NCBI GenBank assembly: GCA_029863385.1
Contig: JAOTVU010000025.1
Coordinates: forward strand, 1 to 39,946
Direction of reading: 5' to 3'
Length of the DNA: 39,946 nt
Source of the DNA: Acidimicrobiia bacterium
GTDB taxonomy: Bacteria > Actinomycetota > Acidimicrobiia > Acidimicrobiales > SZUA-35
The notes beneath the pieces were generated by a model. It made no database searches. It was given only the letters and a program-made list of their open reading frames with translations, and was not told the DNA's origin. Of this stretch, positions 14,268 to 18,438 are shown piece after piece; positions within the stretch are counted from its first letter, which is position 1, and each line of letters starts with the position of its first letter. The translations under genes and the position numbers were made by a program.

Positions 14268-14361
14268 AGCCGGTGACTCCCTGATCGAGATCTTCTGATT
14301 CCGCCTGTTCAGCCTAATTCGCGCCACCGATCGAATCGAGCCCGAAACGCTGGCGGTGGTG

Positions 14362-14390
14362 CTGACTCGACCCCTGCGCTATGCCATAGT
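14362..14390 (+). promoter_or_regulatory. Promoter candidate for a leaderless VOC transcript
   Basis: CTGACT (14362-14367) and CATAGT (14385-14390) resemble the -35 and -10 elements and are separated by exactly 17 bases. Transcription would begin about seven bases further on, at the GTG 14398 start codon. That would make the mRNA leaderless, as is common in actinobacteria. Consistently, no ribosome binding site is visible. Confidence 0.45.
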
Positions 14391-14397
14391 GGTCCCT

Positions 14398-15108
14398 GTG
14401 TTGAGACTTAGACAGGTCGTATGGGTTGCATCCGATCTCGACGCGGCCGAGGGCACGATTTCCGGCCTCCTCGGATTGAGGATCGCCTACCGGGATCCGG
14501 GAGTGGCGGAGTTCGGTCTGTCCAATGTGGTCATGCCGTGCGGTGATCAGTTCGTCGAGGTCGTCTCACCCACCGAGGACGGGACGACCGCCGGCCGGCT
14601 GTTGAAGAAGCGGTTCGGCGACGGCGGCTACATGATTCTTCTGCAGACCGACGACCTGGACTGGGTTCGCGTCAGAGCCGACGAACTCGACATGCGAATC
14701 GTGCACGAGGCAGAGCAGCACGCCGGAGGACCGGCCATTGTCGGACTGCACATTCATCCGTCCGACGTCGGCGGCACGCTCCTGTCGATCGACGCCTGCG
14801 AGGAGCCGGGAGAGTGGCCGTGGGCCGGACCCGACTGGCGCGAGGCGGTCGACACCTCGGTGGTCGACGCCATCGTCGGCATAGAACTGCAGGCGCTCGA
14901 TCCCGATGACGTGGCCCAGCGATGGTCGGCGCTGCTCGATCGCCCGGTCGAGAACGGGCTCTTGAAGCTCGACGACGCCGATCTCCGTTTTGTGCGGGCG
15001 AACGACGGGAGGGGAGACGGTCTTCGAGCCCTCGACTTCCGGGCCCGGGATCGAACCCGGGTTGGTGACCAGCTGATCATCCACGGGGTCATCGTCAACC
15101 TTCGCTGA
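14398..15108 (+). CDS. Glyoxalase-like/VOC-superfamily protein
   Basis: A 236-residue protein made of two glyoxalase-like (VOC) modules. The first is about residues 1-125 (LRQVVWVASDLDAAEGTI...YMILLQTDD). The second is about 155-236, shorter and less conserved, ending IIHGVIVNLR. The pattern is closest to glyoxalase-like domain proteins (Glyoxalase_3/PF13468 type) with no assigned reaction. Start GTG 14398 fits the conserved beta-strand and the promoter spacing; the upstream part of the frame is the promoter. The G+C-rich stretch at 15041-15062 looks like a tRNA T-arm but is part of this coding sequence. The function could be lyase, isomerase or dioxygenase. Confidence 0.75.
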   Translation: MLRLRQVVWVASDLDAAEGTISGLLGLRIAYRDPGVAEFGLSNVVMPCGDQFVEVVSPTEDGTTAGRLLKKRFGDGGYMILLQTDDLDWVRVRADELDMRIVHEAEQHAGGPAIVGLHIHPSDVGGTLLSIDACEEPGEWPWAGPDWREAVDTSVVDAIVGIELQALDPDDVAQRWSALLDRPVENGLLKLDDADLRFVRANDGRGDGLRALDFRARDRTRVGDQLIIHGVIVNLR

Positions 15109-15196
15109 TACCCGACATAGCGGTTGTGGGAGCGGGCCGGACAGGCTTTACCCCGGCCTTATATGCGGTTCGCCATGATGGAGGTCAGAACGAACC

Positions 15197-15319
15197 GCCT
15201 ACGGGGAGTATCCCTCCAACTCGCGTCGTCGTCAGTACGGAGCAATCCCGGCGACGCTGGCCGCCATCACAGGATGTGGTGCGGCGGGAGAGACCGAAGG
15301 CCTTGCTGAAAGGCTCTTC
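15197..15319 (+). promoter_or_regulatory. Probable yybP-ykoY (manganese) riboswitch leader
   Basis: The 120-base leader has the layout of the yybP-ykoY class. Conserved GGGGAGTA (15203-15210) lies at the 5' side and GAGACC (15290-15295) at the 3' side. They are closed by a P1 helix, GCCTACGG (15197-15204) with CCGAAGGC (15294-15301): seven pairs with one A-A mismatch. An internal arm pairs GCGTCG (15222-15227) with CGACGC (15252-15257), and a second pairs CCATCAC with GTGGTG near 15264-15281. A switching hairpin, GCCTT (15300-15304) with AAGGC (15310-15314), would cover the GAAAGG ribosome binding site (15308-15313). P1 and this hairpin share bases, giving a ligand-on translational switch. 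Class recognition is from memory of the consensus; the pairings are seen directly. Confidence 0.68.
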
Positions 15320-16282
15320 ATGCGTCCGACCATTCGACTCGGCACAGTATCCGGGATAGACATCGGCCTCCATTGGTCGATTGCCGTCATCGGATTCGTG
15401 ATCGTCAGTGCCCTCACCGGAACGGTCCTGCCTGACCTCGTCCCCGGCATGACCGGCGGCGCCTACCTCATGGCCGCTCTGGCCACGTCGCTGCTGTTCC
15501 TCGGATCGATCATCGCCCACGAGTTGGGCCACTCGATCGTCGCCCAACGCAACGACATCAAGGTTCGCAGTATCACGTTGTTCGCGCTGGGTGGTGTCGC
15601 CGCGCTCGAGCGTGAGCCTGATGATCCCGGCGCCGCCGCCCGAATTGCGCTGGCCGGGCCGGCCGTCAGTGTCGCCATCGGCGTTGTCGCGGTGGCCGTC
15701 TCCAACCTCATGGCTTCGATGGGCTTCGGTGAGTTGATCATTGCTGCATTCTTCTGGCTGGGCGTCATCAATCTCGTTCTGGCCGTCTTCAACATGATCC
15801 CCGCCCTCCCCCTCGACGGCGGTCGCGTGTTGCAGGCCGTGCTCTGGAAGCGCAGCGGCGAGCGGCATCAGGCCACGATTTCGGCCGCCAAGCTGGGACG
15901 CTTGTTCGGCTGGGCCATCGTTGCCATCGGTGTCTGGCAATTCGCCCAGACCGGCACCGGTTTGTGGACGGCTCTGATCGGTTGGTTCGTCGTGATGTCG
16001 GCCAAGGGCGAGAGCTTCCGGGCCCGCTGGGCGCTGACGCAGGAGCAGGCGGAAAAGGCCGGCTCCACCGACACGCCGTGGCCCTTCGCCCATCTCTATT
16101 CGCCCCCTCGGGGTCGGCCCTCATCCGGTCCCGGCTTTGATCCCGACCCCGGTCCGCGTCGGCCCCCCACCCCGACCGGCGCCGACTCGGAGGTCATCGA
16201 TGTGACTGGCCGCCCGGTTTCTGACGATCCCACCGGGCGGTCGGTCGACCAACGCTCGGACGACCGTTCACCGGTCGGCTGA
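15320..16282 (+). CDS. Site-2 protease family membrane metalloprotease (M50)
   Basis: A 320-residue intramembrane zinc protease. HELGH (His67, Glu68, His71) gives two zinc ligands and the catalytic Glu. NMIPALPLDGGR supplies the third ligand, Asp166. About six membrane segments fill residues 15-240, beginning with the typical IGLHWSIAVIGFVIVSAL. There are no CBS domains and no PDZ domain, unlike SpoIVFB-CBS or RseP types. The C-terminal 70 residues are a hydrophilic, Pro/Asp/Arg-rich, probably disordered tail. Site-2 proteases cut membrane-anchored regulators such as anti-sigma factors, but none is adjacent. ATG 15320 follows GAAAGG by six bases. The gene sits behind the riboswitch-like leader, so a link to metal homeostasis is inferred. 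Confidence 0.88.
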   Translation: MRPTIRLGTVSGIDIGLHWSIAVIGFVIVSALTGTVLPDLVPGMTGGAYLMAALATSLLFLGSIIAHELGHSIVAQRNDIKVRSITLFALGGVAALEREPDDPGAAARIALAGPAVSVAIGVVAVAVSNLMASMGFGELIIAAFFWLGVINLVLAVFNMIPALPLDGGRVLQAVLWKRSGERHQATISAAKLGRLFGWAIVAIGVWQFAQTGTGLWTALIGWFVVMSAKGESFRARWALTQEQAEKAGSTDTPWPFAHLYSPPRGRPSSGPGFDPDPGPRRPPTPTGADSEVIDVTGRPVSDDPTGRSVDQRSDDRSPVG

Positions 16283-16339: not shown

Positions 16340-17731
16340 CTACTCGCCAGATCGGCCGGACCACCCTGGCCCCATGCCCTCACCCCAGGGACCGGCCCGC
16401 AGCGTCGTCGGTTCGTTCCCGCCGAGGTGAAGGGTGACCCTAGCGCCGCCATCCGGGGCGTTTCCGATCTCGAACGTCCCGCCGTGCACGTCGGCGACAC
16501 GCTGAACGAAAGCCAGCCCGAGGCCCGATCCGGTTGACGAGGCGCCCCGTTCGAACGGACGGCGGATTCGCTCCCGGTCGGCTTCGGGAATCCCGGGACC
16601 GTTGTCCTCCACGGTGATCGAGCCATCGGCGGTCACGGTGATGTCGATGCGAAGAGGGGAACCGTCGACGGGCCTGCCGTGACGAACGGCGTTGCGAATC
16701 AGATTGACGATGGCGAGGCGAACGCCGTCGGCCCAGACCCGATGCCGGTGACCTTCCGGCCCGTGGATATGAACGCCTGCCGCAGACCCTTCGGCCGCCA
16801 CCAGACCAACGGCCTGATCGGCGAGGTCGCCGAGATCGGCGTCGGAGAACATGTCGTCGTCGACGAGATCGACCTCGGAAAGGAGGCGCACCGCATCCAG
16901 GGCGTTGCCCATGCGATCGAGTTCGGCTCTGGCCCTGATCACCTGCGGTGTGGGCTCACCGAGCATCGCCACATCAAGGTTGGTCATCGCGCTTTGAAGC
17001 GGGGTTCGCAGTTCATGTGACGCCGACGAGGCGAACGATCGGGCAGCCGCGAGTGCCTCCTCCCGACGGCGGGAGGCCTCGGCCAGCCGATTCAGGGTCG
17101 TGTTGAGGGCGGTCGAGATGTCCTCGACCTCCGGTGTCGAGTCGTCGATCCGGATCGCCCAGCTCTCCGGCGGTCCGGCATCGAGGCTGCGCACCTGGGC
17201 GGCCAGTCTGGTCAACGGACCGGCAACCTGACGGCCTGCGATCAACGCCAAGCCGGCCATCACGGCGGCGACGATGCCGCCGATCGTGTAGACCCTGCGC
17301 CGCAGGATCCGACGCTGCGCGGTGATGTCACCGAGCGGCTCGACGAACTCGACCAAAGTCACGTCGCCAGGCGCGGGGACGTCGAGAATTTCGACGGCAT
17401 AGAGCCGCCACGACTCCCCGTCGGCACGAACGGTCCGCAAACCCGGCTTCCTCAAGACCGGGAGATCTTCCTCGGGCAACCGACCGATTTCGATGACCCG
17501 GGTGTCCGTGACGATTCGGGTTCCGTCGACGATCCTGCTCAGCTCCGAGTTCTCGATGCGGTCCCCAACGGCGGCCAGAACGGCGGCATCGCGGGACCGT
17601 TCCTCGAGTTGCTCGTCGATGCGCCCGCTCACACTTCGAGAAAACAGGATCGATCCAACCGCCGTGACGAGTACGACGGCCACCACACCGGACAACCAGG
17701 CGGCCAGGGCAATCCGGCTGGCCAGTTTCAC
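16340..17731 (-). CDS. Two-component sensor histidine kinase
   Basis: A 463-residue membrane kinase. It has TM1 (about 7-31), an extracytoplasmic sensor loop (about 32-145), TM2 (about 148-168), a HAMP region (about 169-222) and a HisKA domain with His239 in SASHELRTPLQ. The HATPase domain shows NLIRNAVRHG (N box), DNGPGIP (G1) and GSGLGLAFV (G2). It would autophosphorylate on His239 and pass phosphate to the adjacent response regulator. GTG 17731 overlaps the regulator stop by four bases (GTGA). The sensor loop is small and contains no cysteines, and resembles no named sensor fold that I can see. The signal may involve the two exported proteins encoded upstream. Confidence 0.93.
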   Translation of the reverse strand: MKLASRIALAAWLSGVVAVVLVTAVGSILFSRSVSGRIDEQLEERSRDAAVLAAVGDRIENSELSRIVDGTRIVTDTRVIEIGRLPEEDLPVLRKPGLRTVRADGESWRLYAVEILDVPAPGDVTLVEFVEPLGDITAQRRILRRRVYTIGGIVAAVMAGLALIAGRQVAGPLTRLAAQVRSLDAGPPESWAIRIDDSTPEVEDISTALNTTLNRLAEASRRREEALAAARSFASSASHELRTPLQSAMTNLDVAMLGEPTPQVIRARAELDRMGNALDAVRLLSEVDLVDDDMFSDADLGDLADQAVGLVAAEGSAAGVHIHGPEGHRHRVWADGVRLAIVNLIRNAVRHGRPVDGSPLRIDITVTADGSITVEDNGPGIPEADRERIRRPFERGASSTGSGLGLAFVQRVADVHGGTFEIGNAPDGGARVTLHLGGNEPTTLRAGPWGEGMGPGWSGRSGE

Positions 17732-18438
17732 GGTGCTGAGACCCGTGGCGAGTCGATCACGAAACCGACACCTCGAACAGTCCGGATCACGTCGGCGGCG
17801 CCGGCCGCAGCGAGTTTTCGCCGGAGATAACCGACGAACACATCCACGACGTTGGTCTCGACGTCGAAGTCGTAGCCCCACACCTTTTCCAGGAGGGTGA
17901 AACGCGATAGAACCAGATCGCGGTTGCGGGCCAGCACCGTCAGCAGGTCGAACTCCCGCCGGGTCAGTTGGAGATCGACTCCGTTCACCGCGGCCGTCCG
18001 GCGGTCCACGTCTATCGCGAGTTCACCGACGCGCAGCGTGTTCTGCTCCGAACCAAGTGCGTCGAGGAGTTCGGAACGGCGATGCAGAGCGTGAAGCCTG
18101 GCCACGAGTTCCGCAAGGGCGAACGGCTTTACGAGGTAGTCGTCGGCACCGGCCGCGAGCCCGGCAACCCGGTCGGTCACCGCATCCCGGGCCGAGAGGA
18201 TGAGGATGGGCAGGAGGCCGTCGTCGGCGCGCAGCCGGCGGCAGAGGTCGAGGCCCGACATGTCGGGCAGGCCGATGTCGAGCACGACGAGATCGACCCG
18301 TGATCGCTCGACGTGGCGCCGGCCATCCTCTGCGGTTTCGACCGCCGCCACCTCGAAACCGCTGGCCGAGAGACCGTCGGACACCGCCGACCGCACGGGC
18401 TCGTCATCCTCGACGACGAGAACGGTGGCTCGGGACAT
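17728..18438 (-). CDS. OmpR/PhoB-family response regulator
   Basis: A 236-residue regulator with a receiver domain (1-120) and a winged-helix DNA-binding domain (about 135-230). The phospho-acceptor is Asp54 (VVLDIGLPD), the acidic pocket is Glu10-Asp11-Asp12, and the switch Lys is K104 (VKPF). The C-terminal domain shows LTRREFDLLTVLARN and VDVFVGYLRRKL...TVRGVGFVI. ATG 18438 has GGAG six bases upstream; GTG 18441 is the alternative. It overlaps the kinase gene by four bases and follows the lipoprotein gene by 76 bases. The direct repeat at 19144-19163 upstream of the operon is its likely binding site. Confidence 0.93.
   Translation of the reverse strand: MSRATVLVVEDDEPVRSAVSDGLSASGFEVAAVETAEDGRRHVERSRVDLVVLDIGLPDMSGLDLCRRLRADDGLLPILILSARDAVTDRVAGLAAGADDYLVKPFALAELVARLHALHRRSELLDALGSEQNTLRVGELAIDVDRRTAAVNGVDLQLTRREFDLLTVLARNRDLVLSRFTLLEKVWGYDFDVETNVVDVFVGYLRRKLAAAGAADVIRTVRGVGFVIDSPRVSAP

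Follow-up and report, generated by a model that had tools for sequence, protein, structure and literature searches.

A divergent yybP-ykoY-type leader, probably a manganese riboswitch, directly upstream of an actinobacterial M50 site-2 protease gene

The window analyzed here, i.e., the whole stretch of 39,946 nucleotides, corresponds to contig C218 in genome G000, an assembly of 5.04 Mb in 293 contigs with a completeness of about 92%. It carries an M50 gene preceded by a structured leader, with a glyoxalase-like gene on the upstream side and a histidine kinase gene on the downstream side (Table 1). Because the histidine kinase gene is on the other strand, no downstream gene is likely to belong to the M50 transcript. 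Judged from its sequence, the M50 product is a site-2 protease with intact catalytic motifs and a predicted activity in intramembrane proteolysis. Indeed, HELGH and PALPLDGG, matching the HExxH and PxPLDGG that we take to be the site-2 protease motifs, were invariant across 10 aligned orthologs. The best relative of solved structure was the MJ0392 S2P (3b4r, E=1.7e-30), and the protein was also related to SpoIVFB (8vjl, E=9.4e-8). When nine loci were compared, the M50 gene alone was common to all, the upstream gene being additionally common to L020. Since the neighboring genes are not conserved, save for this one upstream gene, the leader goes with the M50 gene. The control of a neighbor gene instead of M50 is thus not supported.

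Table 1. Features of the M50 locus (positions in the window).
Feature	Positions	Strand	Basis or remark
Glyoxalase-like gene, below Pfam cut-off	14356..15108	+	upstream of M50
Upstream 8-base inverted repeat, probably outside the switch	15165-15172/15191-15198	+	exact in window, not conserved
yybP-ykoY-type (Mn2+) aptamer, divergent, without P2 hairpin	15197..15302	+	R1 match 37.9 bits, E=1.5e-7 in 148 kb
P1 5' strand GCCTACGG	15197..15204	+	sequence; P1 covariation across 28 aptamers
L1 core GGAGTA	15205..15210	+	in 11 M50 leaders (GGGGAGTA also the extraction pattern); alignments A2, A3
P1.2 5' strand TCCC, partner 15286-15289	15211..15214	+	L028 has TCTC with GAGA
P3a 5' strand GCGTCG	15223..15228	+	covariation, 0/20,000 permutations as good
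L3 loop TCGTCAGTAC including A15234	15229..15238	+	kept in 11 + 4 further M50 leaders
P3a 3' strand CGACGC	15252..15257	+	P3a covariation
P4 arm	about 15260..15284	+	free fold; 28-aptamer alignment
P1.2 3' strand GGGA + GAGACC core	15286..15295	+	M50 leaders, 28-aptamer alignment
P1 3' strand CCGAAGGC; 15296-15301 common to switching hairpin	15294..15301	+	sequence, 28-aptamer alignment
Expression platform hairpin, 15296-15304 with 15310-15314 + 15316-15319	15296..15319	+	excludes P1
Putative Shine-Dalgarno GAAAGG, 6 nt before ATG	15308..15313	+	GAAAGG in 11/11 M50 leaders, 6 to 14 nt before start
M50 site-2 protease gene, 320 aa, HELGH + PALPLDGG	15320..16282	+	PF02163 86.3 bits (cut-off 27.2), 2.4e-24
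Histidine kinase gene	16340..17881	-	downstream of M50

In the window leader, GGGGAGTA lies at 15203-15210 and GAGACC at 15290-15295, while P1 is formed by GCCTACGG with CCGAAGGC, i.e., seven pairs and one A.A mismatch. The sequence therefore agrees with the layout given in an earlier note on this DNA, namely a yybP-ykoY arrangement with P1 of seven pairs around GGGGAGTA and GAGACC and two internal arms. The conserved L1 GGGGAGUA and the RAGACC of the yybP-ykoY class are both present, GGGGAGTA having served as an extraction pattern too. Under free folding of the leader, P3 and P4 were present and P1 was absent (z -2.37). Eight nucleotides separate P1.2 from P3 in the window and no P2 is drawn there; L028 does have P2. 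In the wider set of 28 aligned aptamers, the P2 columns were gaps in 17 to 26 of the 28 rows. Because they are gapped in most rows, exporter leaders included, P2 seems dispensable in the actinobacterial branch, and a three-way junction would therefore result in the window and in most rows. In L3, A15234 (in GUCGUCA) aligns by its UCA motif with A41 of L. lactis and A48 of X. oryzae, which contact Mn2+ in crystal structures according to an excerpt of PMC6754395. All 11 M50 leaders have this adenosine (GTCGTCA belonged to the pattern used to extract them), and so do 4 further ones found without the pattern.

RF00080, the Rfam model of the class, matched nothing in the window when its cut-off was applied and nothing in genome G000; 15100-15400 stayed without a match even at E<=10. 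A search of 396 phylum genomes gave matches at E<=1 in 44, one of them above the cut-off. An RF00080 score is a matter of detection threshold and no property of the molecule; the model (Rfam 15) scored E. coli mntP at 41.6 bits against its own cut-off of 45. At E<=1, it matched neither E. coli alx, nor the 11 M50 leaders, nor the exporter-linked leaders L079, L082, L084, L086, and L095. In the RF00080 consensus line, P1 is not drawn as a helix. Besides, when the leader was compared with E. coli genomes by megablast, no match was obtained.

A covariance model, R1, was built from 13 actinobacterial leaders found by RF00080 in the phylum, none of them before an M50 gene. Nineteen sequences of the RF00080 survey were considered and 16 were used (not L055, L061, and L063); L054, L065, and L073 were aligned, then excluded because they aligned poorly or had a different form, which left 13. 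L066-L072 and L074-L077 were outside the selection or looked at by motif only. Downstream genes were typed by tblastn against reference proteins, 17 of these being Pfam-confirmed. The 13 leaders preceded 11 exporter genes, i.e., 7 TerC (that of L058 a partial match), 3 UPF0016, and 1 CaCA (351 nt away), while L049 and L057 had no target class and none of the 13 preceded M50. The window leader obtained 37.9 bits with R1 (E=1.5e-7 in 148 kb) and was the model's only match in genome G000, a resemblance that exceeds chance. As a positive control, R1 scored E. coli mntP at 40.6 bits and alx at 30.1 bits, both named Mn-sensing riboswitches in an excerpt of PMC9603457. All 11 aptamer-bearing M50 leaders, window included, were found (E 1.8e-8 to 3.4e-4), whereas 20 M50 loci without the motif scored at most 15.7 bits and the best score elsewhere was 16.6 bits. 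The RF00080 search suggested in the earlier note gave no score, which taken alone speaks against the reading proposed there. The independent model R1 does find the leader, however, and since alx was also missed and mntP fell below the cut-off, the silence of RF00080 is not decisive. The reading of that note, a yybP-ykoY-type candidate directly before a site-2 protease, is supported by the R1 match and by PF02163.

Searches with R1 were extended to 198 genomes of the class, of which 24 had a match at E<=0.1, i.e., the window, 16 strong matches, and 7 weak ones (L096-L102, 20.5 to 24.7 bits, without the motif). Apart from the window, the 17 R1 matches with E<=8.3e-6 that were classified (the 16 strong class matches and L103) all preceded UPF0016, TerC, P-ATPase, or CaCA genes. 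Of 40 relatives searched, 9 gave a match at E<=0.01, and M50 leaders accounted for 4 of these (G000-G003). Another, L107 in family f1 (25.7 bits), lacked every motif and was discarded as a false match. The same search of the 40 relatives missed the true leaders of G004, G005, G011, G012, and G013. Hence, some leaders are lost by the genome search with R1.

The leader was then followed among M50 loci. DNA and protein searches of relatives gave 18 M50 loci (L018-L035), of which up to 260 upstream bases were read, in addition to L007. Ten of these 18 loci, as well as L007, carried the signature GGGGAGTA ... GTCGTCANYACGG ... RAGACC. Among the closest M50 orthologs, 10 of 14 had the signature, L021, L022, L027, and L031 being without aptamer. 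In the 11 M50 leaders, the start codon lay 26 to 50 nt past the CC of RAGACC (the start of L026 being taken as TTG). Three of the loci without aptamer (L021, L022, and L031) had another upstream stretch in common, ATTACAGCATTACAAC, which might be a protein-binding site. Among the best 80 of at least 213 M50 relatives in named genomes, some with short upstream stretches, L108, L109, and L110 alone exceeded 21 bits with R1 or with the second model R2 described below; they are contigs of G004, G002, and G013. In a tree of 53 M50 proteins, from which L007, whose protein is partial, and L132, short ahead of a stop, were left out, the 14 aptamer-bearing proteins fell in one 20-row group (support 87/82) that contains an open fork. 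The aptamer label required 4 changes on this tree vs 12.6 in shuffles, which therefore points to an early gain with losses, or to a few gains, of the aptamer.

Covariation was assessed at two scales. In the 28-row alignment, which was fitted to R1 and is hence biased towards the R1 structure, 90.2% of the cells were paired, 25 of 29 pairs changed on both sides, and covariation reached 0.468 vs 0.139 in shuffled alignments (0/500 as high) and at most 0.098 in slid ones. Covariation of P1, P1.2, P3, and P4 was supported in this wider set. Within the 11 M50 leaders, where the near-identical L018 and L019 are counted separately in this and the hairpin test, P3a was paired in 72 of 77 cases and none of 20,000 permutations was as good, the alignment being anchored on sequence alone. 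P3a is the sole helix of the aptamer (P1, P1.2, P3, P4) supported by these 11 leaders alone. There was no excess covariation in P1.2 (1,819/20,000 permutations as good) nor in P1 (8,746/20,000) within the 11 M50 leaders, because both vary little there.

Downstream of the aptamer, a predicted hairpin may act as the expression platform. In the window, GAAGGCCUU pairs with AAGGC and CUUC (-11.9 kcal/mol), so that 4 of the 6 GAAAGG bases are paired, and P1 and this hairpin compete for 15296-15301. This bears out the claim of the earlier note that a hairpin hiding the ribosome binding site shares bases with P1. In all 11 leaders, the predicted hairpin draws in part on the P1 3' strand. Of the 6 Shine-Dalgarno bases, it pairs between 1 and 6, i.e., at least 4 in 7 leaders and 3, 2, 1, and 2 in L023, L025, L028, and L030, respectively. 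The hairpin strands covary, with a mean of -10.5 kcal/mol for own strands vs -8.0 for mixed ones, and none of 20,000 permutations was as low. Against simple shuffles, 7 of the 11 hairpins were below 0.05 and those of L020, L023, L024, and L025 were not. Compensatory changes, a check proposed beforehand, were thus found for P3a, for the switching hairpin, and for P1 in the 28 rows, and not for P1 within the 11 M50 leaders. In the energy model, which includes no ligand or tertiary terms, forcing P1 is about 7 kcal/mol less favorable (-54.2) than the hairpin state (-61.1). The platform is consistent with a translational ON switch that would be OFF by default, a direction that we infer. A simple scan of 15000-15420 gave no transcription terminator and no consensus sigma-70 promoter, and a terminator as platform was thus rejected. 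Upstream of the aptamer, an 8-base repeat had been proposed to compete for the P1 5' strand. Its two arms match exactly in the window, but in G003, the nearest relative and 95% identical in the leader, the 5' arm differs. Because of this change, the repeat is not supported as a working part and was rejected as a competing element.

Riboswitches of the yybP-ykoY class are known to respond to Mn2+ and to increase exporter production. For Mn efflux, an excerpt of PMC13274385 lists CDF, MntP, UPF0016, and P-type ATPases as the main types. The targets of the aptamer across the order were surveyed with R2, a model from 28 aptamers, 11 of them M50 leaders. Out of 397 genomes of the order, 87 contained matches at E<=0.001, 113 in total. 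For each of the 113 places, the target was assigned from the best match to a reference protein on the aptamer strand, up to about 1.4 kb downstream. The targets were P-type ATPase (35, of which 4 lie 670-970 nt from the aptamer and may not be the first gene), TerC (29), UPF0016 (28), M50 (7), and CaCA (2, one of them a weak assignment at 1.1e-6), with no reference class in 12. The M50 cases were found in G000, G012, and G013 (f1), G732 (f40), G079 (f42), G900 (f19), and G767 (f27), i.e., in five families, and among the seven leaders those of f1 alone were in the R2 training set. R1, which contains no M50 leaders, finds 3 of the 4 leaders outside f1, and not L307; the proteins of all four are M50 by Pfam. 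Because the current Rfam model largely misses this actinobacterial yybP-ykoY branch, its targets are probably under-counted.

Some genomes combine the protease with exporters under the same type of aptamer. G732 (listed as 88% complete and 5% contaminated) has six aptamer matches on six contigs, before M50, UPF0016, P-ATPase, TerC, and two unclassified genes. TerC was found in 13 of 15 relatives and UPF0016 in 5 of 15. When R1 was run on 15 exporter loci (10 of the 16 TerC matches and UPF0016 in 5 genomes), a single aptamer emerged, before UPF0016 in G013 (39.7 bits), so that in G013 the aptamer precedes both UPF0016 and M50. In G000, the TerC gene is without aptamer and no UPF0016 gene was found; within this genome of about 92% completeness, the protease gene is the only one found with an aptamer.

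Other genes were seen behind aptamers. L221, L222, L233, L256, and L267 precede genes like those of cation efflux (CDF) proteins (PF01545 at 8.5e-16 for L221, the others alike by eye). L212 and L240 (R1 49.1 and 42.2 bits) precede small Zn_ribbon_TFIIB proteins (PF13453), an unexpected target, and L219 and L263 precede PGPGW membrane proteins (PF09656). L243 stands before a weakly baeRF-like protein, below the Pfam cut-off, with an ORF similar by eye further down in L263, and L287 before a protein whose C-terminal domain is of the GreA/GreB type (PF01272, 5.5e-9).

Taken together, the leader is likely to be a divergent actinobacterial yybP-ykoY Mn2+ riboswitch controlling M50 translation, with a protease that acts in response to excess manganese. 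The observations behind this reading are the likeness to the class, the covariation, the strand common to P1 and the hairpin, the place directly before M50 genes in five families, and the intact catalytic motifs. Speaking against it are the RF00080 result, the lack of excess covariation in P1 and P1.2 within the 11 M50 leaders, the hairpin state favored by the energy model, the hairpins that do not surpass shuffles or that pair few Shine-Dalgarno bases, the four close orthologs without aptamer, and the failure of R1 to report L307. We infer Mn2+ as ligand, the direction of switching, and a proteolytic output in metal homeostasis. With little Mn2+, the P1 3' strand would join the hairpin 15296-15319, which would partly cover the Shine-Dalgarno sequence, and little protease would be made. 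In excess of Mn2+, the metal would dock L1 and L3 around the conserved L3 adenosine and P1 would close, the hairpin would be blocked, and translation would start. This suggests that cells make the protease when manganese is in excess. The protease would then cut a membrane protein as part of the excess-manganese response; as a guess, the substrate may be a divalent-metal importer or a membrane-bound regulator. At the scale of the order, the chances are about even that Mn2+-switched site-2 proteolysis is a regular arm of homeostasis, removing an importer or freeing a regulator, either on its own or together with exporters under riboswitch control, for which G732 and G013 are examples.

A working Mn2+ switch could also have been derived from an exporter gene, so that protease production follows manganese without a role in metal homeostasis. 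The small share of M50 among the targets (7/113) and the close M50 orthologs without aptamer are in line with such an inherited leader, but the aptamer is kept across five families and the platform covaries in f1, and we consider this unlikely. The yybP-ykoY fold might instead sense another divalent ion (for example Co2+, Ni2+, Cd2+, or Zn2+), with a protease answering a different metal. An excerpt of the review PMC7266159 expects yybP variants of altered ion specificity. Across the order, the L3 form of M50 leaders, TCGTCANYACGG, is common to P-type ATPase and TerC leaders, and UPF0016 leaders mostly have TCGACAYGCTGG. However, L1, the L3 adenosine, and RAGACC are all kept, and in two genomes M50 and UPF0016 both stand behind this type of aptamer, which makes another ion slightly less probable still. 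Lastly, a chance resemblance of a GC-rich leader with few motifs in common and no riboswitch function, to which the silence of RF00080 would correspond, is hardly credible given the R1 E-value of 1.5e-7, the single match in the genome, the covariation, and the constant place before M50.

If the Mn2+ riboswitch reading is true, regulated intramembrane proteolysis joins the outputs of the manganese riboswitch, and a handle is provided on the role of M50 site-2 proteases. The riboswitch class is known and the M50 target is apparently new. Indeed, the literature searched gave no yybP-ykoY or Mn2+ riboswitch with an M50 or site-2 protease target, although Dambach 2015 or Price 2015 may mention one; in PMC8131098, "riboswitch" and "site-2 protease" occur only in the references. 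The window leader shares with yybP-ykoY (RF00080; E. coli mntP and alx) the L1 GGGGAGUA, the conserved L3 adenosine, RAGACC, and P1/P1.2/P3/P4, and one covariance model, R1, finds both this leader and the E. coli ones. A translational mode is reported for mntP in an excerpt of PMC11647493. The window leader differs in being missed by RF00080, in having a protease rather than a transporter as target, and in the absence of P2, which would give a three-way junction instead of the four-way junction of yybP-ykoY described in an excerpt of PMC6754395. M. jannaschii MJ0392 and SpoIVFB have HExxH and PxPLDGG in common with their sequence relative, the M50 protein, but unlike it no tie of theirs to a manganese riboswitch was found in the literature searched. 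A parallel would exist with the rhomboid YqgP of B. subtilis, an intramembrane protease that is tied to manganese stress, as proposed here for the M50 protease, and that links this stress to the cleavage of a magnesium transporter (excerpt of PMC7231995, which also mentions the mgtE riboswitch). YqgP differs in being a rhomboid and not an M50 protease, and manganese is sensed there by its own cytosolic domain instead of a riboswitch on the gene (PMC7231995, same excerpt).
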